Of a DNA stretch of 64,000 nucleotides, positions 17,053 through 38,265 are shown in pieces (position 1 is the first letter of the stretch; each line of letters begins with the position of its first letter). The notes beneath the pieces were generated by a model. It ran no database searches. It was not told the DNA's origin and saw only the letters and a program-made list of their open reading frames with translations. A program made the position numbers and the translations under genes. The stretch is taken from contig NZ_CP042243.1 of NCBI RefSeq assembly GCF_008152325.1, forward strand, positions 2,299,026 to 2,363,025, read 5' to 3'. This DNA is from Crassaminicella thermophila. GTDB lineage: Bacteria > Bacillota > Clostridia > Peptostreptococcales > Thermotaleaceae.

Positions 17053-18150
17053 CTACTCGCCCTTTTCTTTTAATCTTTTTTCTAACTCATTAAGCTCTTT
17101 TCTTGTCTTTCTAACTGATTTTTTTAGTTCATAAACTGTCTTATAAAGACTATTCATATCTGTCTTAGTTGGGAAAGGTAAAAAAGCTAATTGCTGCTCA
17201 AGTAATTTATCATAATTTTTCTTAAAAACAACACTAGCATCAACGACTTGAGCTAACAAACTTGAAAAATCATCTGTTTGAAAAAGATTTTTATAAGCCT
17301 CTTCATTTTTTCTCCACCAATACTCATAAAACTCTTTAAAAGTCTTTGGATGACTTTCATTCTGCATCATATTTTGTAAATCTTGTGCTATTTTTTCCAT
17401 AGTTTCAAGTCCTACGCTAAAAATAGTAGCAGAAAATTCACTTAAAGTATTTGTATATTTCATAAAGGAATCTATACTTTCCATTTGTTTTTCAAAATAT
17501 TCTCTATTGATTCCCATAATAGGAGTATCAAAGAATTTTCCAAATGTTTTTTCATAATTTTCTCCCCAAAGCTTTACATAATTAAAGAAAGCATCTTTAT
17601 CTTGATAAATATTTGTACCCATTAACTTTTGAAACTCCTTAGCATTTTCTAACCATGGCTGAGAAAATTTTTTAACATTATCAAAATACATTTGATAAAT
17701 TTCCATAGACTCTTTAAATATATTTTGTGTAGGTTCAGGTAAATATGATACAAAATGATTCGAAAAAGTTTTTATATATTCGTTTTGCCACTTACTAAAA
17801 ACTTTTTGTACATAATCTGTAGGATTTGCTGTAGCCTGTTTATTTAGCTCGTCCCAAAAACGATACAAATATGAATAAATATTTGCACTATTCATCATTT
17901 TATCTAATACCTCTTTAGTAGGCCCTCCTCCAAATAAGCTAATATTTTTCGTAAACATATCGCTCATCATTTCAACCCACTGATTAAAAATTTCCATTTG
18001 ATTTTTCATAGCCTCTTCCATATTATTCACTTTAGCTGAATCTTTTTTTTCATCTTTAGGTGCAAAGCTTTCTTGCCACATATCTATAACTTTCTTTTGT
18101 GAATCAACCCATTGTCCCATGAAATTATTATATGCATCTAGAAAAAACAT
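17053..18150 (-). CDS. phaE: Class III PHA synthase, subunit PhaE
   Basis: A 365-aa subunit that activates PhaC. Seen: no enzyme motifs, many aromatic-rich amphipathic helices (repeated W, F and Y), and a charged C-terminal coiled coil (about 325-365) with heptad leucines ending in KRLKEKGE, the expected profile for PhaE. It lies between the R-hydratase gene (25 nt upstream) and phaC. Sequence conservation in this family is low, so the call rests on composition, length and gene order. Confidence 0.88.
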   Translation of the reverse strand: MFFLDAYNNFMGQWVDSQKKVIDMWQESFAPKDEKKDSAKVNNMEEAMKNQMEIFNQWVEMMSDMFTKNISLFGGGPTKEVLDKMMNSANIYSYLYRFWDELNKQATANPTDYVQKVFSKWQNEYIKTFSNHFVSYLPEPTQNIFKESMEIYQMYFDNVKKFSQPWLENAKEFQKLMGTNIYQDKDAFFNYVKLWGENYEKTFGKFFDTPIMGINREYFEKQMESIDSFMKYTNTLSEFSATIFSVGLETMEKIAQDLQNMMQNESHPKTFKEFYEYWWRKNEEAYKNLFQTDDFSSLLAQVVDASVVFKKNYDKLLEQQLAFLPFPTKTDMNSLYKTVYELKKSVRKTRKELNELEKRLKEKGE

Positions 18151-18175
18151 TTAAAATCCCCCTTATATTTAATGA

Positions 18176-18592
18176 TTACATTTTTTTTACTACAGCTTCT
18201 CCACTTACAATCTCAGTACCTGATTGATTTCTAACAATTGTTTTTAATATCAGAATCCTTTTTTCATCTCTTTTTTCTTTTACTTCTACAACAGCCGTCA
18301 ACTGATCTCCTATATAAGCAGGTGCTAAAAACTTCATATTTTGAGATAGATAAAGAGTATTTGCACCTGGTAATTCTGTTCCTAAAACAGCAGAAATCAA
18401 AGAACTAGTAAGCATTCCATGTGCAATCCTTTTTTTAAACATTGTCTTAGAAGCAAAATCAGTATCAAGATGTATCGGATTGTAATCACCTGTAACATTA
18501 GCAAATCCAGTAATATCTTCTTCTGTTATAATCTTAGAAAGACTAGCTGTATCACCGATCTTTATTTCCTCATATTTTTTATCTATTACCAT
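18176..18592 (-). CDS. phaJ: MaoC-family (R)-specific enoyl-CoA hydratase
   Basis: A 138-aa single hot-dog domain protein. The hydratase 2 motif is visible with D36 and H41 in GDYNPIHLD, as in PhaJ enzymes, which hydrate crotonyl-CoA to (R)-3-hydroxybutyryl-CoA. As first gene of the operon it would feed PHA synthase directly from fatty-acid or butyrate-type intermediates, explaining the lack of phaA and phaB here. The ribosome site GGGGTGGG is 6 nt from the ATG. Confidence 0.88.
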   Translation of the reverse strand: MVIDKKYEEIKIGDTASLSKIITEEDITGFANVTGDYNPIHLDTDFASKTMFKKRIAHGMLTSSLISAVLGTELPGANTLYLSQNMKFLAPAYIGDQLTAVVEVKEKRDEKRILILKTIVRNQSGTEIVSGEAVVKKM

Positions 18593-18949
18593 ATTCCCAC
18601 CCCTTCATTTTTTATATAAGCTTTATAAAGATCCAGTCTTCTATTCCCGGGAAGCTTATCACTGGATAATATCTATATTTTTGAAACTAACAATGCTTAT
18701 TTTACACGAATAGCTATGGAAATTTTGTCACAACCTGATAGGAGTATATAATTTTTTATATGCAAAAATGGCTAAATTTCATAACCAAATTATTACAAAA
18801 AAAGAAGCCTTTTAGCTTCTTTTTTTCTTTTCTTTCTTTTTTCCTTATAAGATACTATATTTTGATAAGAATCATTTTCAATTTCTTGTGTCGAATATTC
18901 TATAATCCCATATGTCTTTTTCTCTGTTAATTTTTTTTAATATTTCTAT
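18593..18949 (-). other. Intergenic leader region upstream of phaJ
   Basis: No gene found. It holds the DUF4392 terminator (18797-18826) and, close to phaJ, a possible leader structure: ATCCAGT (18631-18637) can pair with ACTGGAT (18661-18667), with an inner CTTC/GAAG stem. I could not place a convincing promoter, although a TAAAAT -10-like box lies about 40 nt before the structure on the minus strand. Confidence 0.35.
18797..18826 (-). terminator. Intrinsic terminator downstream of the DUF4392 gene
   Basis: A 12-bp stem (18797-18808 with 18815-18826), a 6-nt loop, and A/T runs at both ends, so it can act in either direction. Confidence 0.8.
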
Positions 18950-19861
18950 CTATATAACTCGTTTATTGGTCTTGTATTCACGGATTCCAAATTCTACTAT
19001 TGTTCTTAATTTTTTAAGAATTTTAAGATTCTCTTTTAAACTTAGACCATCTACAGTTAATTCTCTTTTTTTGCTACATCCATCTACACCTCCAGCTTCT
19101 ATTATGCTCTTTAATATAAGGATTTCTGTTTTTATATCATGAAGCAGCATTGTATTCGTAAGAAGTGAAAGTGCTGCCGTTAGAGCATGACCTCCCCAAT
19201 TAGATACCCCTGCAACAATAAGATAATCTGTACTGATAGCCGCACATATTTTTTCCCCATGCTTTACAAAATCTACAATAAATGTTGAAACTTTTCCCAT
19301 TCCTACTTCATTTCCTCCATCTCCAACAGCTAATGTAATAATGCCAAGCTCTTTTGCTTTTTCAAACAATATATCTGTATTTGGAACAACATCACTAATA
19401 TCCTCTCCTCTCATGGAATAACAGCGGCCATCCTTTGCTCTTCCGGGTCTTTCTATAGCTACTATATGAGATGGTCTATAAGTATTAAATAGTTGATCAC
19501 AAAATTTTTTTTCATTTTTATAAGGAACAATTTCTATGGGTGCAACAACATTTTTTATCAAGCAACACTTATATAACATTTCTTTAGAATAGTTATCTGT
19601 TATGAGTACCACTTTTTTCCCTAATTGTTCTAATGCACTAGCCAAAGCTATAGCTCCAATAGGCCCATCTGTCTCACCGGTAAGGGTATCTCTTATACAA
19701 AAACCTGTAACGATAAAAACTGTAGAACTTTTTAAAAGTTCTGCTGCTGCTCTTTGTATTTCTCCTGGCAATTTAATCTTATGCATTCCTCTTTGATGTA
19801 AATTTTTTCTTATAACATGATCTATTTTTTCAAAAATTTCTTCGGAATTTTTTTTATTCAA
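18950..19861 (-). CDS. DUF4392 (glutamate cyclase-like) protein
   Basis: A 303-aa soluble protein whose pattern matches DUF4392, the domain shared with the mammalian D-glutamate cyclase (DGLUCY). Seen: a glycine-rich VTGFCIRDTLTGETDGPIGA segment near residue 53, AIERPGRA near 155, and AVGDGGNEVGMG near 197. A role in D-amino-acid or lactam metabolism is possible but unproven. The start is a TTG at 19861, chosen because AAGGAGAT lies 9 nt upstream and the nearby ATG runs into a stop. It follows the DUF3870 gene after two hairpins. Confidence 0.78.
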   Translation of the reverse strand: MNKKNSEEIFEKIDHVIRKNLHQRGMHKIKLPGEIQRAAAELLKSSTVFIVTGFCIRDTLTGETDGPIGAIALASALEQLGKKVVLITDNYSKEMLYKCCLIKNVVAPIEIVPYKNEKKFCDQLFNTYRPSHIVAIERPGRAKDGRCYSMRGEDISDVVPNTDILFEKAKELGIITLAVGDGGNEVGMGKVSTFIVDFVKHGEKICAAISTDYLIVAGVSNWGGHALTAALSLLTNTMLLHDIKTEILILKSIIEAGGVDGCSKKRELTVDGLSLKENLKILKKLRTIVEFGIREYKTNKRVI

Positions 19862-19907
19862 TTTTTCTCATCTCCTTGTATATAATTTATTTTTTCAAAA
19901 ATATAGA

Positions 19908-19941
19908 AAGACCCAGCGCAAGTAAATGCAAACTGGGTCTT
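19908..19941 (-). terminator. Second hairpin of the DUF3870-DUF4392 junction, terminator-like
   Basis: On the minus strand AAGACCCAG pairs with CTGGGTCTT and is followed by TTCTATATTTTT. It lies between the stop of DUF3870 and the ribosome site of DUF4392, so it could attenuate the second gene. Confidence 0.6.
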
Positions 19942-19984
19942 ATTTACCGATATATACAGAGGCAAATCTATATACTGGGTAAAT
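19942..19984 (-). promoter_or_regulatory. First hairpin of the DUF3870-DUF4392 junction, possible anti-terminator element
   Basis: ATTTACC pairs with GGTAAAT at the base and a TATATA-rich upper stem follows. Its 5' arm on the minus strand carries ACCCAG, the same six bases as the 5' arm of the next hairpin, so it could pair instead with CTGGGT at 19911-19916 and prevent the terminator. Mechanism inferred. Confidence 0.35.
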
Positions 19985-20006
19985 AAAACTTTATATAAAA
20001 TTATCT

Positions 20007-20330
20007 TTATTGATTTCTAATCATCATGTACTTATTGCGTGCATCTTTTATAGCAGCAATAACTGCCTTTTGTGCCATCCCATAAAATCTATCCTTTATT
20101 TCATCTATAATTTCATCTATATCATCTAATAGCTGATAGCCTACCAATATAGATTTAATAAAATCACTCGTAACATCTCTTACCATATTACAAGTAGAAT
20201 CAATAATTTTACCACTATCTCTTTCTAATATAATCCCTATAAACAGTATATCATATAAAGCTGCAATAGGATCATTTTTACTAATTTTTGAGGTACCTAA
20301 AACATAGATTGTATTCTTTTCATATACCAA
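20007..20330 (-). CDS. DUF3870 domain protein
   Basis: A 107-aa protein matching the DUF3870 pattern: an initial strand, then ERDSGKIIDSTCNMV, then DFIKSILVGYQL and a helical end with FYGMAQKAVIAAIKDARNKY. The family has no established function. The start is TTG at 20330, set by AAGGGGGAT 7 nt upstream; the only nearby ATG is followed at once by a stop codon. It shares a strand and probably a transcript with the DUF4392 gene. Confidence 0.75.
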   Translation of the reverse strand: MVYEKNTIYVLGTSKISKNDPIAALYDILFIGIILERDSGKIIDSTCNMVRDVTSDFIKSILVGYQLLDDIDEIIDEIKDRFYGMAQKAVIAAIKDARNKYMMIRNQ

Positions 20331-20449
20331 CTACATATCCCCCTTATACATAATCATATATACTCTAATTTCTATCGAATGATACTTTTTTCCTTCTTTT
20401 TATATCATATTTTACAAGCATTTACTATGTTATTTGTATGTATTTAGAA

Positions 20450-20483
20450 AAAATACCTCTGCTTTCATCAACAGAGGTATTTT
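20450..20483 (-). terminator. Intrinsic terminator of the CobN-like/ExbBD-like operon
   Basis: A 12-bp stem AAAATACCTCTG with its complement at 20472-20483 and a 10-nt loop, directly after the CobN-like stop codon. Confidence 0.88.
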
Positions 20484-20488
20484 AACAA

Positions 20489-23400
20489 TTATTTCTTCAT
20501 TATATATCCTTTCAGTACAAGTCCTACAAGAGCCAAAGCCATCATAATTGCTGATAAGGATACAGCACTGCTAACATTTCCCTTGTTTTGATCATTTTTC
20601 TCAATTTCATAAGCCCGTACACTACATTCCTGAGTTTCTTCCTTACTTTCTGATTTTTCTGGCTGTAGCATTTCACCTTTTTGTGTCCCAACATTATTCT
20701 TTGAAATAACTGTTTCTTTCTTATCATTCTTATTTCCTACATTACTGTTATTCGGTTCAGATTTTATTTCTTCTACAGTAGCTAAAGGTATGTCCTGTTC
20801 TTCTACCACTTGTTTTAAACTATCTTCAACTTTTTCTACTTTTTGTTCTTGAATTTCTTGTTGCTGTTTTACTTTTTCTTGATCTTCAACAGGTATTACC
20901 ATTTCTTCTTTTGTAACAGGAATAGTTTCTTTTACAATATCTTTATCTTTTTTAGATGAACTGCTATTTGTAGAAGTATTCTTATTGTTTGAATTTTTAA
21001 TTTTTATATCTTCATCAGTAGCTTCTTTGAAAATATCCTTAAATTTATTCAATATATCTTTATCTAGTGTAGAAAAATTTGCTGCCAATTCATTTAATTT
21101 AATATTAGCACATGTATGATGACAGCAGACAACCCCATAATCAACAGCCGTTTCAATATAAATATTAGATAGTTTTTCCATTGCCTTATCATCCGCATTC
21201 CACATATCACGTCTTGCAGCTTCTAAATTCCATCCAATAATGGCTTGAATTACATAAGGGTCTAGCTGAGAACGGATTGTTTCATCAAATATAAAGGTTT
21301 CAGCTACCTTTTGCCAACCCCAATCATCAATAGCATCTAATGTTGCATCCATTAAAAACATATTTCCTATATGTTTACCAATTTCTACAGAACCAGAAAA
21401 ACCTTCTTTCAACATACCTTCAATCCATTTATGATTAAATACTCTTGTTCTTAATTCTGTTGATACAAACTCTGATAATGATTGAACTCGTGGATCTCCA
21501 GCTTTTCGCGTATTTACAATGTATGATACTATATCTTCACCGGAAGCTGCCTTAGCAGCCAAACTTAGTCCCCCTAAATATTGTGCTACATCATCATTAT
21601 CCATTGTTCCCCATATAGAATCTCTTATTTGGGTCACAATATCTACATTACTTAACATATCTTTAAAAACTTCTCTTGCTTTTTCATCAAAATTTTCACC
21701 CAAAATATCTTTTCCATAAATAAATGACATACGCTTCATGTAAACATCAACAAGATCTTCTTGAGAATCCCATGAGTTTGTAGCCGAAGCCATTTCTGAA
21801 ACACCAGTTCCATAAGTTCCTGGTGCATCACCAAAAATCCTTGCCCCTGCTAAAGTATCTGCTGTTTCTTCATCTATACCTTTATCTTTTAGTTTTTCCT
21901 TTATTGTATCATAATGTTTCTTTAGATAGTTATCATTACTAGATTCATCAAGGTTTTGTACTAGTCTAAACGCTTCATCTAGAATTTCTGCTGTATATAA
22001 GAATGTATCTCTGAATAATCCTGATATAGTTACTACCACATCAACACGAGGTCTTCCAAGCTCATCTATTGGCGTAACCTTTACAGAATCAACGCGTCCA
22101 TATTTATTGTATACAGGTTCTGTACCAATTAATCTCATAATCATTCCAACAGTTTCACCATTTGTTCTCATGGTTTCAATAGCCCATAAAACAACCCCTA
22201 CAGATTCCGGGTATTTTCCATATTCTTCCTTGTATTTTTCAATCAATTGATCTGCAGCTTTCTTTCCTGTTTCCCATGCTGCTTTATCAGGAATTTCCCT
22301 TGGATCAAATGTAACAATATTTCTACCTGTAGGTAATGCATCTGGTATTCTTACCGGATCTTTTCCTGGTCCTGGTTCAATATATCCGCCATTAAGGGCT
22401 CTTAGGATATTTGTGATTTCTTGAGTTGCTAATGCTAAGTTATCTTCAATAGTACTTCTATCACTTTCTCTATTTTCCTTATCATAATTTACGATAGAAT
22501 CTACCATTTTATCAAATAATTCTCCTTTAGGTGGCTCCCCTAGTGTATGCAATCCGTAAGGCATCAATTCTTCTGTAAATGCTTCAAGATATTCATGTAA
22601 TTTTTCTGCTGATTCATAAAATTTATTTGTCAAATCTAAATCAATTTCTTTATCAAGATTATTTTTTTGAACAATTTCTACAATCTGGTTTTGTAGTTGT
22701 ACAGCTCTTTCATTGTTTCCTTTATTGATTTCATCTAAATATTTTATAATTAAGTCTTGTAAATTTACCAAATCTCCATAAAGTTCAGGTTGAATCATTG
22801 GAGGAATCAAATGGTCAATAGTTATTCCATAACCTCTCCTTTTTGACTGCGTTGCTTCACCTGGATTATTCATAATATAAGGGTTAATATTTATCATATT
22901 TCCAATCAATTGATCTGGCCAATCATCTTCACCTAAACCTACACTACGACCTGGTAACCATTCTAAGGTACCATGTGTTCCCAAATGAATCACTGCATCT
23001 GCTTCTAATTCATTTTGTAACCATAAGTAAAAAGCTATATATTGATGTGTCGGTGGCAATTCAGGAGAGTGAGCTATTTTGCTAGGATCATCTCCCCATC
23101 CCCGCATTGGCTGTGGTCCAATGAAAATATTTCCCATCTTCATGCCTGGTATAATAATTTTATCATCTACAACCATAACATTTCCTGGAGCTTTTCCCCA
23201 TTCCTTTTCTACATCTTCTTTTAGCTTTTCTGGCAGCTTATTATACCACTGAAGATATTTTTCTACTGGTATTGTTATAGCACCTGAATCTACTAGTTTT
23301 TCCATCTCTCCTGGTGCCCAGCTCCCCACATTTCGTCCTCTTTCATCATACATTCTCTTTATTGCTTCAGGATCTATTTCACCTTCAACCTTATAACCAT

Positions 23401-25171
23401 CTTTCTTTAATGCTTCTAAAATATTTGATGCGCTCTCTATTGTATTTAGGTAAGATGCTGAAAAATCATCTTTTCCACCATGGTGACTATAATAAATCAA
23501 AGCAATCTTCTTATCTTCATTTTCTTTATTCTTAAGATCTGCCCAAGACTTTACACGCCCTGCTAAACGCTTTATATTATAATCTAGTGGTACTTTTTTT
23601 ATAAGAGGTGCACCAGTAATAGGATCAGTTCCTATTTCCTTTGTTCCTCCCATAAATACTGGCTCAATTCTTCCATCCATTTCAGGCATAGCAATCTGCC
23701 AATACATTGCATTCATAATTCCAGCAGAATTTTGTTCCCAATCATCAAGGTCTCTACTATATGTAGGCGTAATTACTGGTACATTTAATTTATTAAAAAT
23801 CTCAACAGCTACTTCAGGTTTGCCATATTTATAATTAAATCCAAATCCCGCAATATAAGCATCAATGATACTTTTACCATTTCGCATGAAATATTCATCT
23901 ATTATATTTATTCTATTTCTAGAATTTGTAAATACAAGCATCACATTAGCATTATTTTGTTCTAACTCCTTCAATAATGCTAAATACATATCAATATCAT
24001 TATTCTTATATGCACTATCATAGGTTGAAATTCCTATCCATGAACCATTTTCCTTAAAATGACCACTCTTTTTATACCAAGCTTTATACGCCTCTAAATT
24101 TTCAAAGATTCCTGGGAAAGCTGGTTTCGTTTCTAAGCAATTTTTTACTTGGTTAAATAAAGTACTTGTATCCTTAGAACTTTTTAAAGCATCTGTAATA
24201 GTCTTTGATAATTCCTTAAATTCAATATTTTTATCTCCTTTTTCATAAAATACATGATAGGATGCATCAATTACAATAGGTGTTGTAGGACCTTCATCAG
24301 AATATACTGAGTTATAAACTGCATCTGCAACAGAAGCAATAAAATCATTTGAGTCCCTTAATGATAAAAATATATCATTCCAATCCTTTTCATCTGATTC
24401 TGAATAAATAATATTTTCCTTCAATATATCTTGTGCCAAAGGTATTCTTCTATCATCATACACAGCTTCATATACAGCTTCATAAACGGCATGATGTGCT
24501 GTATTTGTCACCAAAGCAAGATCTATTTCTTTTGTTTCTTCGTTTATAGCTTCATAAAAAACTTTCCCTAACTCCCCTGCATTAAAAGAAAGTTCTTTTG
24601 CATCAGGATGATAAATAAAGCAACTTGGCATACCTGAAGGTTCTATAGGTTCAGCTACTTTTAGTCCTCCTAGGTCACCTAAATAAAGAAGAAGTCTACG
24701 CATATTTTCTACTCCACCTTTTGTGAAGTAAGCTTTTATTTCTTCATCTTTACTATAATCAATGTTTGGATACTGTCCTGAAAAATCACTACTCCTTGTA
24801 GAATATATATGACAAGATTCAGGTGCTTCTGAAATAATAGGACCTAATAAAGAAATTCCTCCTGAACCAATCATTTCCATTAATAATACATCTGTATCTT
24901 TTAAATTATCCTTTAACTGTTCAGCAACATCAGAATTCTCTAAAAATGTTGTACTAAATATTTTTACATCTAAAGGATATTTATTTTGTAGCTCTTTATA
25001 TGCATCCACCATAGAAGCAATATAACTGTCACTACCTAGAACTAAAACAACTTTTATTTTGTCTATACTCTCCCCCTGTGCAATAGGTATATTGACAATA
25101 TAAGTCATCATCATACATAAAAAGATTGTAATAGCTACTAATCGTCTGCATAAACTTTTGGAAAGATTCAT
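20489..25171 (-). CDS. Secreted, membrane-anchored CobN/magnesium-chelatase H-like protein
   Basis: A 1560-aa protein homologous to the large chelatase subunit CobN/BchH, which binds a tetrapyrrole and a metal ion. Unlike cytoplasmic CobN it has an N-terminal signal peptide (basic start, hydrophobic 10-28, then AQG) and, after the chelatase domain ends near residue 1370, a long Lys/Glu/Asn/Ser-rich disordered stalk, a membrane helix (about 1535-1555) and a KK end. It should therefore face the cell exterior. The CobN signature HLGTHGTLEWLPG is intact at 729-741. A short AVYE repeat sits near residue 228. It is the last gene of a cobalamin-riboswitch operon with ExbB/ExbD-like genes; no ATPase partner (CobS/CobT or ChlI/ChlD) is present. 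Role in corrinoid or metal-tetrapyrrole handling outside the cell is inferred. Confidence 0.9.
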   Translation of the reverse strand: MNLSKSLCRRLVAITIFLCMMMTYIVNIPIAQGESIDKIKVVLVLGSDSYIASMVDAYKELQNKYPLDVKIFSTTFLENSDVAEQLKDNLKDTDVLLMEMIGSGGISLLGPIISEAPESCHIYSTRSSDFSGQYPNIDYSKDEEIKAYFTKGGVENMRRLLLYLGDLGGLKVAEPIEPSGMPSCFIYHPDAKELSFNAGELGKVFYEAINEETKEIDLALVTNTAHHAVYEAVYEAVYDDRRIPLAQDILKENIIYSESDEKDWNDIFLSLRDSNDFIASVADAVYNSVYSDEGPTTPIVIDASYHVFYEKGDKNIEFKELSKTITDALKSSKDTSTLFNQVKNCLETKPAFPGIFENLEAYKAWYKKSGHFKENGSWIGISTYDSAYKNNDIDMYLALLKELEQNNANVMLVFTNSRNRINIIDEYFMRNGKSIIDAYIAGFGFNYKYGKPEVAVEIFNKLNVPVITPTYSRDLDDWEQNSAGIMNAMYWQIAMPEMDGRIEPVFMGGTKEIGTDPITGAPLIKKVPLDYNIKRLAGRVKSWADLKNKENEDKKIALIYYSHHGGKDDFSASYLNTIESASNILEALKKDGYKVEGEIDPEAIKRMYDERGRNVGSWAPGEMEKLVDSGAITIPVEKYLQWYNKLPEKLKEDVEKEWGKAPGNVMVVDDKIIIPGMKMGNIFIGPQPMRGWGDDPSKIAHSPELPPTHQYIAFYLWLQNELEADAVIHLGTHGTLEWLPGRSVGLGEDDWPDQLIGNMININPYIMNNPGEATQSKRRGYGITIDHLIPPMIQPELYGDLVNLQDLIIKYLDEINKGNNERAVQLQNQIVEIVQKNNLDKEIDLDLTNKFYESAEKLHEYLEAFTEELMPYGLHTLGEPPKGELFDKMVDSIVNYDKENRESDRSTIEDNLALATQEITNILRALNGGYIEPGPGKDPVRIPDALPTGRNIVTFDPREIPDKAAWETGKKAADQLIEKYKEEYGKYPESVGVVLWAIETMRTNGETVGMIMRLIGTEPVYNKYGRVDSVKVTPIDELGRPRVDVVVTISGLFRDTFLYTAEILDEAFRLVQNLDESSNDNYLKKHYDTIKEKLKDKGIDEETADTLAGARIFGDAPGTYGTGVSEMASATNSWDSQEDLVDVYMKRMSFIYGKDILGENFDEKAREVFKDMLSNVDIVTQIRDSIWGTMDNDDVAQYLGGLSLAAKAASGEDIVSYIVNTRKAGDPRVQSLSEFVSTELRTRVFNHKWIEGMLKEGFSGSVEIGKHIGNMFLMDATLDAIDDWGWQKVAETFIFDETIRSQLDPYVIQAIIGWNLEAARRDMWNADDKAMEKLSNIYIETAVDYGVVCCHHTCANIKLNELAANFSTLDKDILNKFKDIFKEATDEDIKIKNSNNKNTSTNSSSSKKDKDIVKETIPVTKEEMVIPVEDQEKVKQQQEIQEQKVEKVEDSLKQVVEEQDIPLATVEEIKSEPNNSNVGNKNDKKETVISKNNVGTQKGEMLQPEKSESKEETQECSVRAYEIEKNDQNKGNVSSAVSLSAIMMALALVGLVLKGYIMKK

Positions 25172-25281
25172 AAAAGCTACCCCCTTTGGTCTTTGGTTTT
25201 TGTTTGCTAAAATATTTTAATAGTTAAATTATAATTTGATTACATAAGACTTCCTTTCATCCATATTTTCATTCTTATCAG

Positions 25282-25650
25282 CTATTGGTCATCTTTATGA
25301 AATTCTCCTTCAATTAAAATCAACTTTCCTGTTTTAGGATCTTGAAAAACAGTTCCCATTTCATTGTAACCTTCTCCAGATCCATTATGAACATCAGGAA
25401 TCTCTTTAAGTTCTTTTCCCTTATTTACAGATGTTATCTTCTGTAATTGCTGCTTCATCTTTTTCCTTTCTTCAGGAGTCTTATTAGAAAATATAACATT
25501 CTGCAGATTCCATGAAAGAACCAATGCAACCATTAATCCACAACAAAATACCATCATCACATCCATTAAATTTGCCATTCCTGATAATGGATCAATTTCC
25601 CGTTCTTCTGACAGTGTTCTTTTTCTCCTCCTGCTCAACAATTTCTTCAT
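25282..25650 (-). CDS. DUF2149 protein, ExbD/TolR-like single-span subunit
   Basis: About 122 aa: a basic cytoplasmic N-terminus, one membrane helix containing NLMDVMMVFCCGLMVAL with an acidic Asp at its start (D30 from this start), and a hydrophilic outer domain. This layout mirrors ExbD/TolR/MotB, where the Asp carries protons. The gene overlaps the ExbB-like gene, as in energiser pairs. The start is uncertain: ATG at 25650 has GAAGGGG too close, an in-frame TTG at 25659 has no site, and a TTG slightly further in is also possible. Family DUF2149 is known to sit beside CobN-like genes in methanogens and clostridia. Confidence 0.78.
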   Translation of the reverse strand: MKKLLSRRRKRTLSEEREIDPLSGMANLMDVMMVFCCGLMVALVLSWNLQNVIFSNKTPEERKKMKQQLQKITSVNKGKELKEIPDVHNGSGEGYNEMGTVFQDPKTGKLILIEGEFHKDDQ

Positions 25651-26281
25651 CCCCTTCAATTAATTCTAAAAGTACTTCCATACGGTTTATATCTTTTTCA
25701 TACCATCTTCTTCTTATCTTAGAAATCAGTGATGCAATAGCACCAACTGCAACCCCTACTACTGTAGTATCAAAAGCAATGATTACTGCCTCAGAAAGTC
25801 CCACTACATCTCCTTGTCCAAGATGTGCTAGCCCTGGCCCTAATGGAATCAGCGTACCCATTAATCCTAGCACAGGTCCAAGTTTTGTAATTAAGTCTGT
25901 TTTATCAAGCGTCTTTTTCATGCGAAATTCTTCCTGATCTAAAATATCTCTTGCAAGAATTTTTCTTGAGCTTTTTCCTATGTTTTCTTTACTCATAAAA
26001 TCATAAATTAAATCTTTTTGCCTTTGTGTTAGACCATTATTCTCAATTACCTGATAAATATTATTTTTTTGCCATGGCAAATTTTCTTTAACGTCACTAA
26101 ATATTTCAACTAGATCAACTTGCTTTGCTTCTTTTCTTTTTTGCCTTTCAGCAATAAAATTTCCTAGTTCCATAAAAACGATCAATATCATTAAGAGCAA
26201 TCCTACTACTACTGGAATCAAAAAACTTTGTGCAATAGCGTGTAAAACAATAGTTAAATATTCAGACCCTGGAATACTCAC
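25592..26281 (-). CDS. MotA/TolQ/ExbB-type proton channel protein
   Basis: About 229 aa with the ExbB topology: an N-terminal membrane helix (about 15-37), a long cytoplasmic segment, then KLGPVLGLMGTLIPLGPGL and AVIIAFDTTVVGVAVGAIASL, the two conserved helices including the Thr-rich proton path. The start is taken as GTG at 26281 because GGGGGG lies 7 nt upstream; the open frame reaches 26332 without a site. The start overlaps the preceding DUF2162 gene by 20 nt and the end overlaps the DUF2149 gene, implying translational coupling of a complex. It probably energises the CobN-like surface protein (inference). Confidence 0.88.
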   Translation of the reverse strand: MSIPGSEYLTIVLHAIAQSFLIPVVVGLLLMILIVFMELGNFIAERQKRKEAKQVDLVEIFSDVKENLPWQKNNIYQVIENNGLTQRQKDLIYDFMSKENIGKSSRKILARDILDQEEFRMKKTLDKTDLITKLGPVLGLMGTLIPLGPGLAHLGQGDVVGLSEAVIIAFDTTVVGVAVGAIASLISKIRRRWYEKDINRMEVLLELIEGDEEIVEQEEKKNTVRRTGN

Positions 26282-26990
26282 TTTGCTTTCCCCCCTTTTT
26301 ATTATTTTGTAATCTATATTGTATAAAACCAATAAAACTTACGATAATTAAGCTAATCACTACTACTACTAAAATTTCTAGAGAATCAATAACTATTGGC
26401 GTAAAAAACATTTGCGCTGAGTTCACAAAATTAGGAATGAACAATCCTAGTGCCACAGTAATCATTCCAAAAAACAGCAGTAACTTATTGAATATTCTCC
26501 CCGGATTCATATGCATATGTTCAATCATCCATTTTGTCCCAAAACCGATTATGATTAGCAAAATCATAAAAAGTATAGCTATTCCTAACTCAAATAACCT
26601 ATTAAATCCTTTTAGCTTTTGTTGAAAAATCATTACACTAATTGCCATAGCAATCAGACAAAAAGGACAAGGTAAAAATGCAAGCATTTGACGACTCAAT
26701 TTATTACTAGAAAAAATTTCATCTCTACAAGATGCCTCTTCATGTAATCCAAGATAAATGAAAAATCCTGATAAAGCCATCGAACCTATAAACGTATAAC
26801 GATCAATAAAATCACTAAGAACATGCATGTAAGAAGCAAGCAGTAAAGTCATTCCATATAAAATACTTCCAAAACAAAATGAAATAAAAACAATCATTTT
26901 TCTACTTACTCCTGCTACCCCAAGAATAATCCCTGTTTTCAAGCTTAAAATAATAAGGGCAAAGACCATGCTTATAAATGCTAAAAACAT
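26262..26990 (-). CDS. DUF2162 polytopic membrane protein
   Basis: A 242-aa protein with six or seven membrane helices and a CPFCLIA motif within the third or fourth helix. The pattern fits DUF2162, described as a putative transporter and found with ExbB-like, DUF2149 and CobN-like genes. It is the first gene after the cobalamin riboswitch and its attenuator, with AGAGGTGAT upstream of its ATG. It may move a metal ion or corrinoid precursor across the membrane; the substrate is unknown. Confidence 0.75.
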   Translation of the reverse strand: MFLAFISMVFALIILSLKTGIILGVAGVSRKMIVFISFCFGSILYGMTLLLASYMHVLSDFIDRYTFIGSMALSGFFIYLGLHEEASCRDEIFSSNKLSRQMLAFLPCPFCLIAMAISVMIFQQKLKGFNRLFELGIAILFMILLIIIGFGTKWMIEHMHMNPGRIFNKLLLFFGMITVALGLFIPNFVNSAQMFFTPIVIDSLEILVVVVISLIIVSFIGFIQYRLQNNKKGGKQSEYSRV

Positions 26991-27020
26991 TTATATCACC
27001 TCTTTATTTTTATACATAAA

Positions 27021-27048
27021 AAACCTCTCAATTTAAATTGAGAGGTTT
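27021..27048 (-). terminator. Riboswitch-controlled terminator ahead of the DUF2162 gene
   Basis: A perfect 28-nt palindrome (AAACCTCTCAATTT and its complement) followed on the minus strand by six T. It lies between the cobalamin aptamer and the first gene, so control is probably by transcription attenuation. Confidence 0.85.
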
Positions 27049-27171
27049 AATATACTCAGAAATACACAACTTTCTTGTATAAAGGAAATACCTACTTTCA
27101 TTCTATATACAAAGAAAATTCTAACGATATCCACACCTCCCTATGACCCGTAGGGCTTTAGTGTTATCATA

Positions 27172-27322
27172 CAGGCAGGTCTTCTGACTTAAGGTTCATC
27201 GTCCTTTACTTCCTTCCCAGTTTCCCAGTGGACATTTGTAAGGACTTCCCTATTACAGCGGCGGGACCGTGCAGGATTCTCACCTGCTTCCCTTTTCACC
27301 AATTCTATATAATTGGCACCTG
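27172..27322 (-). ncRNA. Cobalamin riboswitch
   Basis: On the minus strand all hallmarks of the B12 aptamer are present in order: GGTGCC at the 5' end, GAAGCAGGTGAGAATCCTGC (paired P3-P4 region), GGTCCCGCCGCTGTAA core, a variant B12 box, and the 3' closing GTCAGAAGACCTGCCTG. It precedes an attenuator and the DUF2162-ExbB-DUF2149-CobN operon, showing that the operon answers to cobalamin. Confidence 0.96.
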
Positions 27323-27451
27323 TAGACATTAATATTTACTTTTCTTTACATATTATAGCATATGCCATATGAAATTTGTAACAAAATTTCCTTTTTTGTT
27401 CTATAATAAATATTATTACCAGTAAATCATCCTTTTCATAAAGCAAATGAT

Positions 27452-28486
27452 TTATGCTGTTATATACTTAATCAGTAATTTTATAGTTTCTTCTATTGCT
27501 TTTATATGGGTTCTTTCATAATGATGTGTAGCATCTACTCCAGGGCCAATGCATGCAAAATTCACATCAAATCCTTGAAGGACACTTACACTAGCATCTG
27601 AGCCATATCGAAAATAAACATCTACTACATAATCTATATTATTCAACTTGCAGATATCAACAAGTTTTTTTCTAAATCCAAAATCATATGGCGTACGACT
27701 ATCCCTTGCACATATTGTAACCTTTGTTTCATCTGACTGTTGATTTGGTGCAACAAGCCCAATATCAAGAGCCAAAAATTCCTTTGTTTTCTCTGGTATA
27801 TAGGATATACCGTGTCCTGTTTCCTCATAATTGCTTATGTAAAAATGAGTTGTATATTTAGGCTCTACATTGTGATCTTTTAAATATTTTACCAAACCAA
27901 AAACAATAGCTACACAAACCTTATCATCAAGGAACCTTGATTTAATAAAGCCTCTTTGAGTTATAACTGTTCTTGGCTCAAAATAAACAAAATCACCAAC
28001 ATTGATTCCTAAATTTAATACATCCTCCTTATTCTTAACAAATTCATCTATACGAATTTCCATATTCTCATCCGTTCTAAGGGTTTCTCTAACTTCCTCA
28101 GAGTAAACATGAATAGAAGCCTTTTCTGGTAAAAGACTACCTGTATATGTTTCTCCTTTTAAGGTCTTAATTATTACATTTTCTCCTTCAAAGGCAGTCC
28201 ATGCAAACCCACCGATTGGAAGTATTTTCAATCTACCATTTTGCTTAATTTCTCTTACAATTGCCCCTAAAGTATCTATGTGAACAGCAATTGTTTTTTG
28301 ATTTTCATTATCTTCCCCTTCTATTGTCGCAATCAAAGCTTTTTTATTGGTCATTCTAGTAGAAACGCCAAGCTTTTCAAATTCTCTTTTTACATAATCC
28401 ATAGCCTTGTCTGTGTCTCCACTAGGACTAGGAATTTCAAGTATTCTAAGCATTGTCTCTTTCATATATGCCATATCAATATTCAT
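27452..28486 (-). CDS. M42-family metallo-aminopeptidase
   Basis: A 344-aa cytosolic peptidase of the M42 (PepA/TET, formerly CelM) family, which forms large particles and trims N-terminal residues from short peptides. Visible metal-site motifs: H69 and D71 in AVHIDTLGAI, LDDKV, the catalytic and binding EE in NYEETGHG, ALDIG, and a late His (HHYERTH). It lies 33 nt after oppF on the same strand, so imported peptides and their degradation share one transcript. Start supported by GGGAGGAAATATCC upstream. Confidence 0.9.
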   Translation of the reverse strand: MNIDMAYMKETMLRILEIPSPSGDTDKAMDYVKREFEKLGVSTRMTNKKALIATIEGEDNENQKTIAVHIDTLGAIVREIKQNGRLKILPIGGFAWTAFEGENVIIKTLKGETYTGSLLPEKASIHVYSEEVRETLRTDENMEIRIDEFVKNKEDVLNLGINVGDFVYFEPRTVITQRGFIKSRFLDDKVCVAIVFGLVKYLKDHNVEPKYTTHFYISNYEETGHGISYIPEKTKEFLALDIGLVAPNQQSDETKVTICARDSRTPYDFGFRKKLVDICKLNNIDYVVDVYFRYGSDASVSVLQGFDVNFACIGPGVDATHHYERTHIKAIEETIKLLIKYITA

Positions 28487-28519
28487 GGATATTTCCTCCC
28501 TCTATATCAATAACTTTAT

Positions 28520-29491
28520 TTAATAAGATAATTTCTTAGCAAAATGACATGCTACATATCTGCCCATTTCAATTTCCCTTAATTCAGGGGTTTGTTGCTT
28601 ACATATATCTTTACGGTATCTGCATCTTCCATAAAATCTACATCCATTAGGCGGATTAATAGGACTTGGCACATCTCCTTCAAGAATAATTCTTTTTCTT
28701 TTTACATCAACCCTTGGAATAGGAATAGCAGATAATAAAGCTTGTGTATATGGATGCAGCGGATCTACAAACATCGTTTTATAATCAGAAAGCTCAACAA
28801 TCTTTCCTAAATACATTACTGCAATTCGATCACTAACATGCTTTACAACACTTAAATTGTGCGCAATAAAAAGATATGTAAGTCCAAATTCTCTTTGCAG
28901 ATTCTTCATAAGGTTTAATATTTGTGCTTGTATACACACATCTAATGCTGATACAGGCTCATCCTGTACGATAAATTCAGGATTAAGGGCTAATGCTCTT
29001 GCAATTCCAACTCTTTGACGTCTTCCTCCATCTAGCTCGTGTGGATAAGCATTTACAAGTCTTTCTGCTAACCCTACAATTTCCATAAGTTCTTTTATTC
29101 TTTTGTTCATATCTACACTATTACTATATACTTTATTTACATAAAGTGGTTCCGCAATAATTTCTGATATGGTGAGTCTTGGATTTAAACATGAATAGGG
29201 ATCCTGAAAAACAATTTGTGCATTTTTTCGAAAATTTCTCATTTTTTTATTGTTAAATTTTAATATATTTTCTCCTTTGAAGATCACTTCTCCACTCGTT
29301 GCTTCAAGTAAGCGGATTAATACTCTTCCAGTAGTAGATTTCCCACATCCTGACTCACCAACTAATCCTAAAGTTTCACCTTTATTGATAAAAAAATCTA
29401 CATCATCTACCGCATGAAGCATTCCTTCTTTTGTTTTAAAATACTTTTTTAACCCCTTTACTTCTATTAGTTTTTCCCCTACGTTTACCAT
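28520..29491 (-). CDS. oppF: Oligopeptide ABC transporter ATPase OppF-type (operon 1)
   Basis: A 323-aa ATPase. Walker [10 protein letters not shown], Walker B with IVQDEP, and the C-terminal oligopeptide-type tail with the Cys cluster ([14 protein letters not shown]), which often binds a 4Fe-4S cluster in this family. The ABC signature reads LDGGR instead of LSGGQ, a variant I have seen in related transporters. Fourth of the ABCDF set and followed by the M42 peptidase. Confidence 0.9.
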
Positions 29492-29508
29492 TTTTTATCC
29501 CCCTAACT

Positions 29509-30480
29509 TTATCCTTCATATAAAAAACATGCAACAAAATGTCCTGGTGTTACTTCATGCATTTTAGGTTTATGAACAAAACATTTCTCAGAAGCGTTCG
29601 GACATCTTGGATGAAAGGTACATCCAGATGGGAGATTCATCGGATCTGGCGTTAAGCCTTTTATCACTTTTAATTCTTCCTGTTCCTCTTCTAAATCTGG
29701 AATAGAATCAAAAAGTCCTAAAGTATATGGATGTTTTGGATTTAAATATAAGCTGTTTTTATCTGCATACTCTACAATATTTCCAGCATACATAATGGCA
29801 ACTTTATCGCAAATTTCTGCCACTACCCCCAAATCATGGGTAATCATAATCATAGAAGTATCATATTCCTTCTTTAATGCTTTCATCAATTCTAATACCT
29901 GTGCCTGTATAGTTACATCTAATGCAGTTGTTGGTTCATCCGCAATAATTAATGAAGGGTTACAAGCAAGAGCTATTGCTATAACTACCCTTTGTTTCAT
30001 CCCTCCACTAAACTGATGAGGATAATCATTGATTCTTTCTTTTCGAATTCCTACCTTTTCAAGCATAATTTCTGCTTTTTTCATAGCTTCATTCTTTGTT
30101 ACATTTTGATGGAGCTCTATCATTTCAGCAATTTGTTTTCCCACTGTAATGACAGGATTTAGGGATGTCATAGGATCTTGAAAAATCATTGCAATTTTAT
30201 CTCCTAATATATTCCTCATTTCTTCTTGCGATTTTTTTAATAAATCTTCTCCTTCAAAGAATATCTCTCCACTAACAATTTCCCCTGGTGGATTAGGAAC
30301 TAACTGCATGATTCCTAAAGCAGTAGTAGTCTTTCCAGCTCCTGTTTCTCCTACAAAACCAAGTGTTTCTCCTTTTCCTAATTGTAAGTTTAAATTTTCA
30401 ACTGCATGAACAATTCCATTATCTGTTTTATAGTGAATTGTTAGATTTTTAATATCTAACAATTTATCTGTATTGCTCAT
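29509..30480 (-). CDS. oppD: Oligopeptide ABC transporter ATPase OppD-type (operon 1)
   Basis: A 323-aa ATPase with Walker A GETGAGKTT, signature FSGGMKQR, Walker [13 protein letters not shown], and the C-terminal Cys motif CTFHPRCPNASEKC. It pairs with OppF to drive peptide import. Gap of 17 nt to oppF. The Walker A reads GETGAG in place of the usual GESGSG, which is tolerated in the family. Confidence 0.92.
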   Translation of the reverse strand: MSNTDKLLDIKNLTIHYKTDNGIVHAVENLNLQLGKGETLGFVGETGAGKTTTALGIMQLVPNPPGEIVSGEIFFEGEDLLKKSQEEMRNILGDKIAMIFQDPMTSLNPVITVGKQIAEMIELHQNVTKNEAMKKAEIMLEKVGIRKERINDYPHQFSGGMKQRVVIAIALACNPSLIIADEPTTALDVTIQAQVLELMKALKKEYDTSMIMITHDLGVVAEICDKVAIMYAGNIVEYADKNSLYLNPKHPYTLGLFDSIPDLEEEQEELKVIKGLTPDPMNLPSGCTFHPRCPNASEKCFVHKPKMHEVTPGHFVACFLYEG

Positions 30481-37379: not shown

Positions 37380-37456
37380 TGGCACGCCCTGAGGGACTCG
37401 AACCCCCGACGAACTGATTCGAAGTCAGCCACTCTATCCAACTGAGCTAAGGGCGC
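37380..37456 (-). tRNA. tRNA-Arg (anticodon UCG)
   Basis: 77 nt including an encoded CCA. Acceptor stem GCGCCCT with AGGGCGT, loop CTTCGAA giving anticodon UCG, and a standard T arm (GGGGGTTCGAGTCCC). It is a separate unit: promoter at 37483-37511 and its own terminator. Confidence 0.95.
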
Positions 37457-37482
37457 ACGGTATTATTTTTTAAGCATTATTT

Positions 37483-37511
37483 ATTATACACTATAACAGT
37501 TTATTTTTCAA
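37483..37511 (-). promoter_or_regulatory. Promoter of tRNA-Arg(UCG)
   Basis: TTGAAA, 17-nt spacer, TATAAT with a TG just before the -10 box: a strong sigma-A promoter ending about 27 nt upstream of the tRNA. Confidence 0.8.
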
Positions 37512-37591
37512 GTTGATTCTTCACTCAGTATCAAAATACGTTCTATAATAAATGCTATGGAACCCACCTCGACATCTATCATACAACCAAA

Positions 37592-37635
37592 AATAAACTC
37601 TAAATCAGTTATTCAAAACTAATTTAGAGTTTATT
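37592..37635 (-). terminator. Terminator of the tRNA Gly-Arg-His-Gln-Lys-Gly unit
   Basis: A 19-bp stem with one mismatch (37592-37610 with 37617-37635) directly after the last tRNA-Gly. Confidence 0.85.
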
Positions 37636-37637
37636 AC

Positions 37638-37711
37638 TGGAGCGGATGATGGGAATCGAACCCACGCTACCAGCTTGGAAGGCTGGAGTTCTACCATTGA
37701 ACTACATCCGC
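37638..37711 (-). tRNA. tRNA-Gly (anticodon UCC), copy 1
   Basis: 74 nt with encoded CCA; anticodon loop CTTCCAA. Identical over its whole length to the tRNA at 38045-38118. Confidence 0.95.
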
Positions 37712-37718
37712 ATATATA

Positions 37719-37794
37719 TGGTGACCCATCCGCGGCTCGAACGCGGGACACCTTGATTAAAAGTCAAGTGCTCTACCAACTGAGCTAATGGGTC
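37719..37794 (-). tRNA. tRNA-Lys (anticodon UUU)
   Basis: 76 nt with encoded CCA; acceptor GACCCAT with ATGGGTC; anticodon loop CTTTTAA. Confidence 0.95.
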
Positions 37795-37799
37795 TTATT

Positions 37800-37875
37800 T
37801 GGCTGGGGTAGCAGGACTCGAACCTACGAATGCCAGAGTCAAAGTCTGGTGCCTTACCGACTTGGCGATACCCCA
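37800..37875 (-). tRNA. tRNA-Gln (anticodon UUG)
   Basis: 76 nt with encoded CCA; acceptor TGGGGTA with TACCCCA; anticodon loop CTTTGAC. Confidence 0.95.
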
Positions 37876-37882
37876 ATATGTA

Positions 37883-37958
37883 TGGGGTGGCTGATGGGAT
37901 TCGAACCCACGAATGCAGGAGCCACAATCCTGTGTCTTAACCGCTTGACTACAGCCAC
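37883..37958 (-). tRNA. tRNA-His (anticodon GUG)
   Basis: 76 nt with encoded CCA; acceptor GTGGCTG with CAGCCAC, discriminator C, and the extra G(-1) of tRNA-His encoded at 37959. Anticodon loop TTGTGGC. Confidence 0.95.
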
Positions 37959-37963
37959 CATAA

Positions 37964-38040
37964 TGGCGGGTCCACAGGGATTCGAACCCCGGACACACGG
38001 CTTAGAAGGCCGTTGCTCTATCCAGCTGAGCTATGAACCC
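37964..38040 (-). tRNA. tRNA-Arg (anticodon UCU)
   Basis: 77 nt with encoded CCA; anticodon loop CTTCTAA. The acceptor pairs GGGTTCA with TGGACCC, with one G-U pair. Confidence 0.95.
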
Positions 38041-38044
38041 ACAT

Positions 38045-38118
38045 TGGAGCGGATGATGGGAATCGAACCCACGCTACCAGCTTGGAAGGCTGGAGTTCTA
38101 CCATTGAACTACATCCGC
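38045..38118 (-). tRNA. tRNA-Gly (anticodon UCC), copy 2
   Basis: 74 nt with encoded CCA, identical to copy 1. First tRNA of the six-gene unit, 26 nt after the -10 box at 38144. Confidence 0.95.
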
Positions 38119-38143
38119 ATATTTTTTGTCTCAACAATATAAT

Positions 38144-38172
38144 ATGATAGCACACCTTTAAAAGCTTGTCAA
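38144..38172 (-). promoter_or_regulatory. Promoter of the six-tRNA unit
   Basis: TTGACA (perfect -35), 17-nt spacer, TGC-TATCAT (extended -10). Confidence 0.85.
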
Positions 38173-38188
38173 CTCTTTTTTTGTTTTT

Positions 38189-38265
38189 TGGTCGGGGTGG
38201 CAGGATTTGAACCCGCGGCCCTCTGGTCCCAAACCAGATGCGCTACCAAACTGCGCTACACCCCG
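38189..38265 (-). tRNA. tRNA-Pro (anticodon UGG)
   Basis: 77 nt with encoded CCA; acceptor CGGGGTG with CACCCCG; anticodon loop TTTGGGA. A T-rich tract follows, and the next promoter lies immediately after it. Confidence 0.95.

Follow-up and report, generated by a model that had tools for sequence, protein, structure and literature searches.

A four-gene operon under the control of a cobalamin (vitamin B12) riboswitch was identified on the minus strand of a 64,000-nucleotide stretch of the Crassaminicella thermophila genome (contig NZ_CP042243.1, positions 2,299,026 to 2,363,025; hereafter the window). Its genes, designated T, U, V and S, encode a DUF2162 membrane protein, an ExbB/TolQ/MotA-like channel protein, a DUF2149 protein of ExbD-like layout and a large protein of the CobN/ChlH/HmuS type, predicted to be exported and anchored in the membrane. 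The set is related to the Bacteroidota heme systems HmuS-T-U-V with their exported CobN-like proteins, and is best read as a corrin/cobalt-type branch of this group that is separate from the heme de-chelatase HmuS. We see an even chance that in this monoderm bacterium the four proteins form a surface chelatase complex, driven by protons and repressed by B12, that obtains cobalt or a corrinoid when B12 is scarce. A first-pass annotation of the same sequence had called such a system undescribed, which proved too strong: exported CobN-like proteins with partners of this kind are known as HmuS-T-U-V and BtuS (PMC12583661, PMC6460266, PMC10100974), and in Bacteroides fragilis NCTC 9343 an operon resembling hmu is already reported to have a cobalamin riboswitch ahead of it (PMC10100974). 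New here are a U-V pair in a host whose genome shows no Omp85, TonB or TonB-dependent receptor, a riboswitch-linked clade of Firmicute S proteins, their Asp active-site motif and the pairing of U with V across 79 loci.

The operon, its host and its occurrence elsewhere

The anatomy of a B12-riboswitch T-U-V-S operon was confirmed. The aptamer (27157..27338; coordinates are those of the window, and the leader and all four genes lie on the minus strand) matched RF00174 over model positions 1–189 of 189 with 121.5 bits against a gathering threshold of 31.5, and is followed by an intrinsic terminator (attenuator) with a 12-pair stem and a T tail (27021..27048). The predicted fold of the leader (27160–27015) beat 200 of 200 shuffled sequences (z = −3.2). 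Downstream are T (26262..26990, 242 aa; PF09930, 110.8 bits, cut-off 34.4), U (25592..26281, 229 aa from a GTG; PF01618, 39.7 bits, cut-off 22.9), V (25282..25650; PF09919, 78 bits, cut-off 27.1) and S (20489..25171, 1560 aa; PF02514, 1069.5 bits, cut-off 24.5). With the riboswitch and all four Pfam scores well above their cut-offs, chance matches were ruled out. T overlaps U and U overlaps V, a gap of 110 bases separates V from S, and all four reading frames are intact. The starts of U and V were favoured by eye: the GTG at 26281 from its ribosome-binding site, in an open frame extending to 26332, and the ATG at 25650, with a less clear ribosome-binding site, in an open frame extending to 25659. 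The interval originally annotated (20489–27322) begins at the stop codon of S and stops 16 bases inside the outer edge of the riboswitch.

Searches of the host genome (3.08 Mb, two contigs) for Omp85, TonB_C and the TonB-receptor barrel were all negative, while Gram-negative controls were positive in each. U-V therefore cannot drive such a receptor, and a role as TonB energiser in the Crassaminicella cell was rejected. The ChlI/ChlD-type cobaltochelatase model TIGR02442 had no match over its cut-off, only four weak scattered ones; models of CobS and CobT were not searched. Eight cobalamin riboswitches were found in the genome, several of which precede anaerobic-pathway cbi genes, cobT and BtuFCD-like genes (all identified by eye), and one a cluster in which BtuCD-like genes (by eye) stand together with CbiK and a Peripla_BP_2 (BtuF-type) protein anchored by SLH domains. 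The single CbiM of the genome stands directly behind none of the eight, and NicO had no match. No hmuY-like neighbour was seen by eye among the open reading frames of window positions 18000–30000, the HmuY model itself not having been searched.

Co-occurrence was first assessed in 391 genomes of the host's class, in which DUF2149 was found in five (three over cut-off) and CobN in 12 (ten over cut-off), the two together only in the window's own genome, so that the pairing is rare within the class. A DUF2149 match below cut-off, in a 631-aa frame of genome G284 (L026), was set aside. An alignment of U was then used as query against named genomes, and the best 80 of at least 590 confirmed matches, less one duplicate, gave 79 loci, mostly from methanogens and Clostridia; as these were chosen via U, S genes without U fell outside the sample. 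Nineteen loci carried T-U-V-S, 17 T-U-V and 43 U-V. V accompanied U in all 79 (no more than 186 bases apart in 77), and T was present in each of the 19 loci with S. Some of the 43 U-V loci may conceal a divergent T, as in L089, where the frame before U matches DUF2162 below cut-off.

A cobalamin riboswitch (99–138 bits) lies directly upstream in five of the five other Firmicute T-U-V-S loci fetched, namely those of Anaerophilus nitritogenes, a Peptococcaceae metagenome-assembled genome, Dethiobacter (gene order U-V-S-T), Firmicutes UBA2598 and Carboxydocella thermautotrophica. None was found in four tested non-Firmicute T-U-V-S loci (L052, L053, L062, L063) or in two hmu loci (L045, L046); ten other T-U-V-S loci were left out of riboswitch testing. 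Plasmid pSZ77 of Trichlorobacter (Geobacter) lovleyi carries two cobalamin riboswitches, a TonB receptor, T-U-V-S, a separate ExbB-ExbD-TonB set and a second receptor.

These results agree with the first-pass annotation on the four-gene riboswitch unit, on the Gram-positive type of the host and, as far as the ChlI/ChlD type is concerned, on the lack of an ATPase chelatase partner. Its suggestion that proton flow must act on something besides an outer-membrane receptor is supported by the absence of receptor and TonB matches, and the co-occurrence it had proposed as a check was found in the 19 loci with all four genes.

The S protein, its membrane partners and known systems

S begins with a hydrophobic (signal) segment (residues 8–26; 25094..25150) and ends in a charged, low-complexity stalk rich in Glu, Lys and Asn (approximately residues 1386–1530; 20582..21016) and a C-terminal membrane anchor (residues 1535–1553; 20513..20569), with an additional weaker hydrophobic segment at residues 95–113. 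Judged by hydrophobicity, both terminal membrane segments of the HmuS type are thus present, and S is predicted from its sequence to be exported and anchored, as had been claimed for it. No such terminal segments occur in 12 of 13 CobN/BchH comparison rows; the thirteenth, from Cupriavidus, has both. The nearest solved structures by sequence are ChlH (4zhj), CobN (7c6o) and HmuS (9d26), and S scored under the curated cut-offs of all nine NCBIfam CobN/BchH models listed (for TIGR02257, 689.1 bits against 822.05).

The de-chelation site of HmuS has been described as His538 in HFG(T/A)HG together with His1209 and Glu1212 in LSLDHxxEFMGG (PMC12583661). The corresponding first motif of S, HLGTHGTLEWLPG (residues 729–741; 22949..22987), keeps the catalytic His (His733, aligned with His538) within HLGTHG and differs at the second residue. 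The second motif differs at the active site itself: S has MDNDDVAQYLGG (21569..21604), where Asp1194 replaces His1209 of HmuS and Gln1197 replaces Glu1212, and carries an Asp-Asp before GG in the style of Sinorhizobium CobN. Asp at the position of His1209 is shared by the six Firmicute S proteins linked to a riboswitch (that of the window among them), T. lovleyi S, the aligned archaeal S proteins and the CobN proteins of Sinorhizobium, Deinococcus, Spirosoma and Halococcus; His is found there in HmuS and Roseobacter BchH. In the columns of Met79 and His254, which ligate heme in HmuS, S has Ile and Gly, albeit in a poorly conserved region, and the Met-rich domain IV insertion is lacking (at most eight Met per 120 residues, against 30 in Prevotella nigrescens HmuS).

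In a tree of 39 rows, the six Firmicute S proteins formed one clade outside HmuS (support of 100 in the Shimodaira-Hasegawa-like approximate likelihood ratio test, SH-aLRT), and the three rows from hmu operons formed a separate clade (SH-aLRT 100); the root is arbitrary, and the order of the S clades relative to cytoplasmic CobN is not resolved by this tree. An identity of S as an HmuS-type heme de-chelatase was accordingly rejected on the active-site motif, with the heme ligands, the insertion and the clade in support. Met79 and the Met-rich insertion are the weaker criteria here, because the S protein of Aureibacter, encoded in an hmuY operon, also lacks both (nine Met). Carboxydocella thermautotrophica (L051) has tandem S genes, one in the riboswitch clade and the other grouping with an actinomycete S.

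T is a polytopic protein of about six to seven helices (six hydrophobic segments; AlphaFold2 mean predicted local distance difference test score, pLDDT, 82.4) with a PCPFC motif at residues 107–111 (26658..26672). The PCPxC pattern was present in 20 of 20 T proteins from T-U-V-S loci (window included) against nine of 17 from loci without S (Fisher p = 0.0006, relatedness not corrected for), and might be a metal-binding or thiol-redox site. Foldseek gave no match to the T model with an E value of 0.001 or lower, and a profile search against the PDB gave nothing convincing. The best VIA-align rows were halves of major facilitator superfamily carriers such as NorA (Z 9.1, root mean square deviation 3.2 over 142 residues); a match of this sort is too common among helical proteins to imply kinship.

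The U profile matched TolQ, MotA and ExbB in the PDB (best E 0.00045), and four of its residues, Pro153, Gly156, Thr160 and Thr190 (numbered along the longer frame), were conserved in 78 of 78 sequences, the two threonines being the counterparts of ExbB/TolQ channel residues. V has a single hydrophobic segment (31–49) with Asp33 (25561..25563; numbering from 25659) at the start of the helix, which is the layout of ExbD/TolR, and both Asn30 and Asp33 were found in 78 of 78 aligned V proteins. The ExbB/ExbD-like layout first proposed for the pair was borne out in this respect.

Among known systems, the Bacteroidota HmuS-T-U-V set (B. thetaiotaomicron HmuS, 9d26) is alike in its exported CobN/ChlH fold with both terminal membrane segments, its ExbB-like U, its DUF2149 V and its polytopic T. 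It differs in gene order (S-T-U-V there, T-U-V-S here), in the B12 riboswitch found here, in the hmuY and hmuR genes of the hmu operon as against a host without TonB receptor or outer membrane, in the active-site, ligand and insertion differences of S given above, and in T, since the HmuT proteins of Aureibacter and Prevotella are without PCPxC. The T. lovleyi pSZ77 cobN locus (PMC3403914) shares the T-U-V-S order, cobalamin riboswitches, the DNDD motif and PCPxC in T; its host, however, is Gram-negative, TonB receptors and its own ExbB-ExbD-TonB flank it, and its S falls in another clade. That account notes a cobN without cobST and leaves its biochemical role open.

BtuS1 and BtuS2 (PMC6460266) and the NCTC 9343 operon, compared by description only, likewise involve exported CobN-like proteins (and, in NCTC 9343, a riboswitch) but are accompanied by outer-membrane receptors. 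PA1922–PA1925 of Pseudomonas aeruginosa, also compared by description, combine a CobN-like, an 'ExbD'-annotated and a DUF2149 protein, and differ in their zinc-starvation (Zur) control and TonB receptor, with no DUF2162 protein named in the available parts of the reports (PMC4542158, PMC9431628); the terms PA1922, PA1923, PA1925 and CobN do not occur in PMC11481552. Relatives of HmuV in Methanomicrobia and of HmuS in archaea are already in print (PMC10100974, PMC12583661). A literature search, judged mostly from titles and abstract openings, returned no description of a monoderm T-U-V-S, and a text search gave five papers that mention DUF2149 and none that mentions DUF2162, subscription papers excepted in both cases. 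BtuS was reportedly recognised as a third type of CobN by Rodionov in 2003. S is homologous to CobN and ChlH of the class I chelatases CobNST and ChlHID and has the Asp motif of CobN; it differs in its predicted export, in scoring below the CobN equivalog cut-offs and in having no ChlI/ChlD-type partner over cut-off. With the Ton/Tol ExbB-ExbD motors the operon has in common a U over the PF01618 cut-off and the invariant Asp at the helix start of V, but the profile comparisons gave no support for homology of V to ExbD, and the host has neither TonB nor an outer membrane.

Proposed mechanism and alternatives

In the mechanism we favour, transcription would stop at the leader terminator when adenosylcobalamin is plentiful, and T, U, V and S would be made when it is scarce. 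U and V would form a motor in the cytoplasmic membrane in which proton flow moves V, and V would work directly on S (and T); outside the membrane, where there is no ATP, the pair would stand in for the AAA+ subunits (CobST, ChlID) of the cytoplasmic relatives of S. S would thereby open or reload its central cleft, in the preferred version freeing cobalt that is bound outside the cell in a cobalt-tetrapyrrole or another cobalt chelate, or alternatively releasing a captured corrinoid. Cobalt could then enter via T or a CbiM-type importer and a corrinoid via BtuCD.

The action of V on S or T, the replacement of ATP-driven partners by proton flow, the cobalt or corrinoid cargo and the direction of the reaction are what we infer; the evidence behind them is the riboswitch with its terminator, the B12 riboswitches of the five other Firmicute loci and the tandem pair of T. 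lovleyi, a genome without Omp85, TonB_C or TonB receptor, the presence in T. lovleyi of T-U-V-S beside a separate ExbB-ExbD-TonB, the unbroken association of V with U and of T with S among the 79 fetched loci, the CobN-like Asp, the PCPxC of all 20 T proteins linked to S and its absence from the HmuT of Aureibacter and Prevotella, CbiM beside four of 17 T-U-V loci, and the lack of a ChlI/ChlD-type ATPase over cut-off.

Several results weigh against this mechanism, two of them most heavily. HmuS, isolated after heterologous expression, reportedly converts ferroheme to protoporphyrin (PMC12583661), and the chemistry may therefore not be driven by the motor. In addition, most of the U-V pairs fetched (60 of 79) have no S, which indicates that U-V is not a dedicated chelatase motor. 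The T profile, seeded with two HmuT proteins taken by position, found no T in six of six Gram-negative plasmid loci with U, V and S (L143–L148), so T is not a general partner; in the 13 kb seen of a Cupriavidus plasmid, whose S has both terminal segments, nothing matched T, U or V. The notion that an exported S always travels with T-U-V was weakened by both. Removal of cobalt from a finished corrin is, furthermore, chemically very hard.

Homology of V to ExbD was not supported by HHalign (probability 1.2% over 12 columns, which are exactly the Asp motif), the PDB profile search with V gave no ExbD, and ExbD was not among the families listed for V (25 of 45). The structure model of V is poor (mean pLDDT 64.5), and V appears ExbD-like in layout only; the topology originally proposed for it does agree with that of ExbD. 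Finally, His occupies the Asp position in Azospirillum S and in two clostridial CobN-like proteins. The Asp/His difference alone as a readout of the metal is weakened by these proteins, in the Azospirillum case because nikR lies within the same 18 kb.

Among other explanations, the one we take most seriously, although we hold it to be unlikely, is that S only binds tetrapyrrole and captures cobamides or their precursors, which U-V would release to BtuF/BtuCD without any metal being moved, as a monoderm counterpart of BtuB with TonB-ExbBD. The B12 riboswitch upstream of T-U-V-S would suit such a receptor, as would the BtuCD-like genes (by eye) and SLH-anchored Peripla_BP_2 protein under other B12 riboswitches of the host and, in several Clostridia, the BtuF/FecCD-type transporters and surface proteins that adjoin U-V pairs without S. 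However, S retains the catalytic His of the chelatase superfamily, CbiM is found beside T-U-V in four of 17 loci, and exported relatives of S occur in nickel, zinc and iron/heme (hmu) contexts, which points to metals. S might instead work in the opposite sense outside the cell, perhaps together with an exported CbiK, and load cobalt into corrinoids or tetrapyrroles that lack a metal. Class I chelatases normally run toward insertion, and the sole CbiK/CbiX-type chelatase found in the host looks exported and is B12-controlled; yet no ChlI/ChlD-type AAA+ partner was found over cut-off and we know of no extracellular supply of metal-free corrinoid, and we regard this possibility as improbable.

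A heme/iron system, with S as a de-chelatase like HmuS, appears very improbable to us. The fold family of S and the partner families U and V are indeed common to the HmuS system, and HmuS is reported to take iron from heme (PMC12583661), but S is without His1209/Glu1212, Met79/His254 and the Met-rich insertion, stands in a separate clade, and is encoded behind a B12 riboswitch in a genome without a TonB receptor. Least credible of all, in our view, is a relict or non-functional Ton-like system; although monoderm Ton systems have been called likely non-functional (PMC12204202), the four frames here are intact, key residues are kept in 78 of 78 sequences and the riboswitch is retained in five of five other Firmicute loci. 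The presence in a monoderm of a conserved motor, controlled by a riboswitch and paired with a putative surface chelatase, makes the non-functional view of such systems testable. The Asp/His difference likewise yields a specific prediction, namely a corrin/cobalt as opposed to a porphyrin substrate, and if U-V powers S, the complex would parallel the chelatases of B12 and chlorophyll synthesis, with proton flow where those use ATP.

U-V pairs away from S and other features of the host

Metal-uptake or surface-protein families adjoin 29 of the 60 U-V loci without S. CbiM cobalt importers lie within 6 kb in four of the 17 T-U-V loci, and the queried metal-uptake or surface families within the same distance in 25 of the 43 U-V loci; nine of these 25, all from Methanobrevibacter, have FecCD and FmdE, and 12, all from Bacillota, encode relatives of secreted or surface proteins in which an Oxidored_molyb domain was matched. 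Among 27 tested loci without S, four molybdenum cofactor (Moco) riboswitches and one cobalamin riboswitch were found. In P. aeruginosa, the CobN-like, 'ExbD'-annotated and DUF2149 proteins PA1923–PA1925 belong to the zinc-starvation regulon (PMC4542158, PMC9431628). The common thread of these loci seems to be a scarce metal and a motor working on an exported partner.

ExbB/ExbD-type motors are known as energisers of the outer membrane. We put forward, tentatively and at rather less than an even chance, that U-V serves monoderm bacteria and archaea generally as a proton-driven motor, working mechanically on surface-anchored proteins that capture metals or metal cofactors (cobalt/corrinoid, heme, molybdenum cofactor and others). 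In the CobN branch it would replace the ATP-driven AAA+ motor of class I chelatases, and the result would be an extracellular chelatase powered by protons. In Gram-negative relatives, HmuU-HmuV would then act on HmuS/HmuT rather than on TonB, contrary to published models, which show them energising HmuR, the TonB receptor (PMC12583661). The effect of HmuT, HmuU and HmuV on HmuS activity is left open in print (PMC13227078), and the T. lovleyi operon, with T-U-V-S alongside a full ExbB-ExbD-TonB, bears on their role.

Further observations were made at individual loci. Four Moco riboswitch loci (L107, L117, L119 and L114) combine U-V with Big_2 or SLH surface proteins, some of which have weak Oxidored_molyb or Shr-like heme-interacting domains; in L107 U lies approximately 9.6 kb downstream of the riboswitch. 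These gene sets may allow Clostridia to capture molybdenum cofactor or heme in an energised manner. A Runella plasmid (L143) has U-V-S inside a hyp nickel-hydrogenase maturation cluster and an Azospirillum plasmid (L147) has it about 7 kb from nikR, and both are possible nickel versions of the system. The Cupriavidus plasmid locus (L131) contains two frames of the CobN family, and it is the product of the first that has hydrophobic segments at both termini.

In the host, a protein with two CbiK domains and a lipoprotein-like signal (by eye) is encoded under a B12 riboswitch (L020:11050–12804; C1:2170549–2172303). It is the sole CbiK/CbiX match in the genome despite many cbi genes and, as it looks exported, a cytoplasmic cobalt-inserting enzyme is unaccounted for. 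Another B12 riboswitch (L023:956–11335) is followed by an SLH protein of 1338 aa that combines prenyltransferase-toroid and DUF4430 domains, by transporter genes resembling (by eye) those of the energy-coupling factor (ECF) type and by another SLH protein with a toroid domain, a set that resembles a transcobalamin-like capture system. A third cobalamin riboswitch (L017:625–4837) precedes an Asp-Al_Ex permease (PF06826) and an acyl-CoA transferase-like gene (by eye), genes with no obvious B12 function. A strong one at L019:14894–15071 (C1:2246393–2246570) has no same-direction frame of at least 80 aa for more than 1.3 kb downstream, where a frame on the opposite strand is situated. Within the window itself, eight tRNA genes form a run at 37383–38265.

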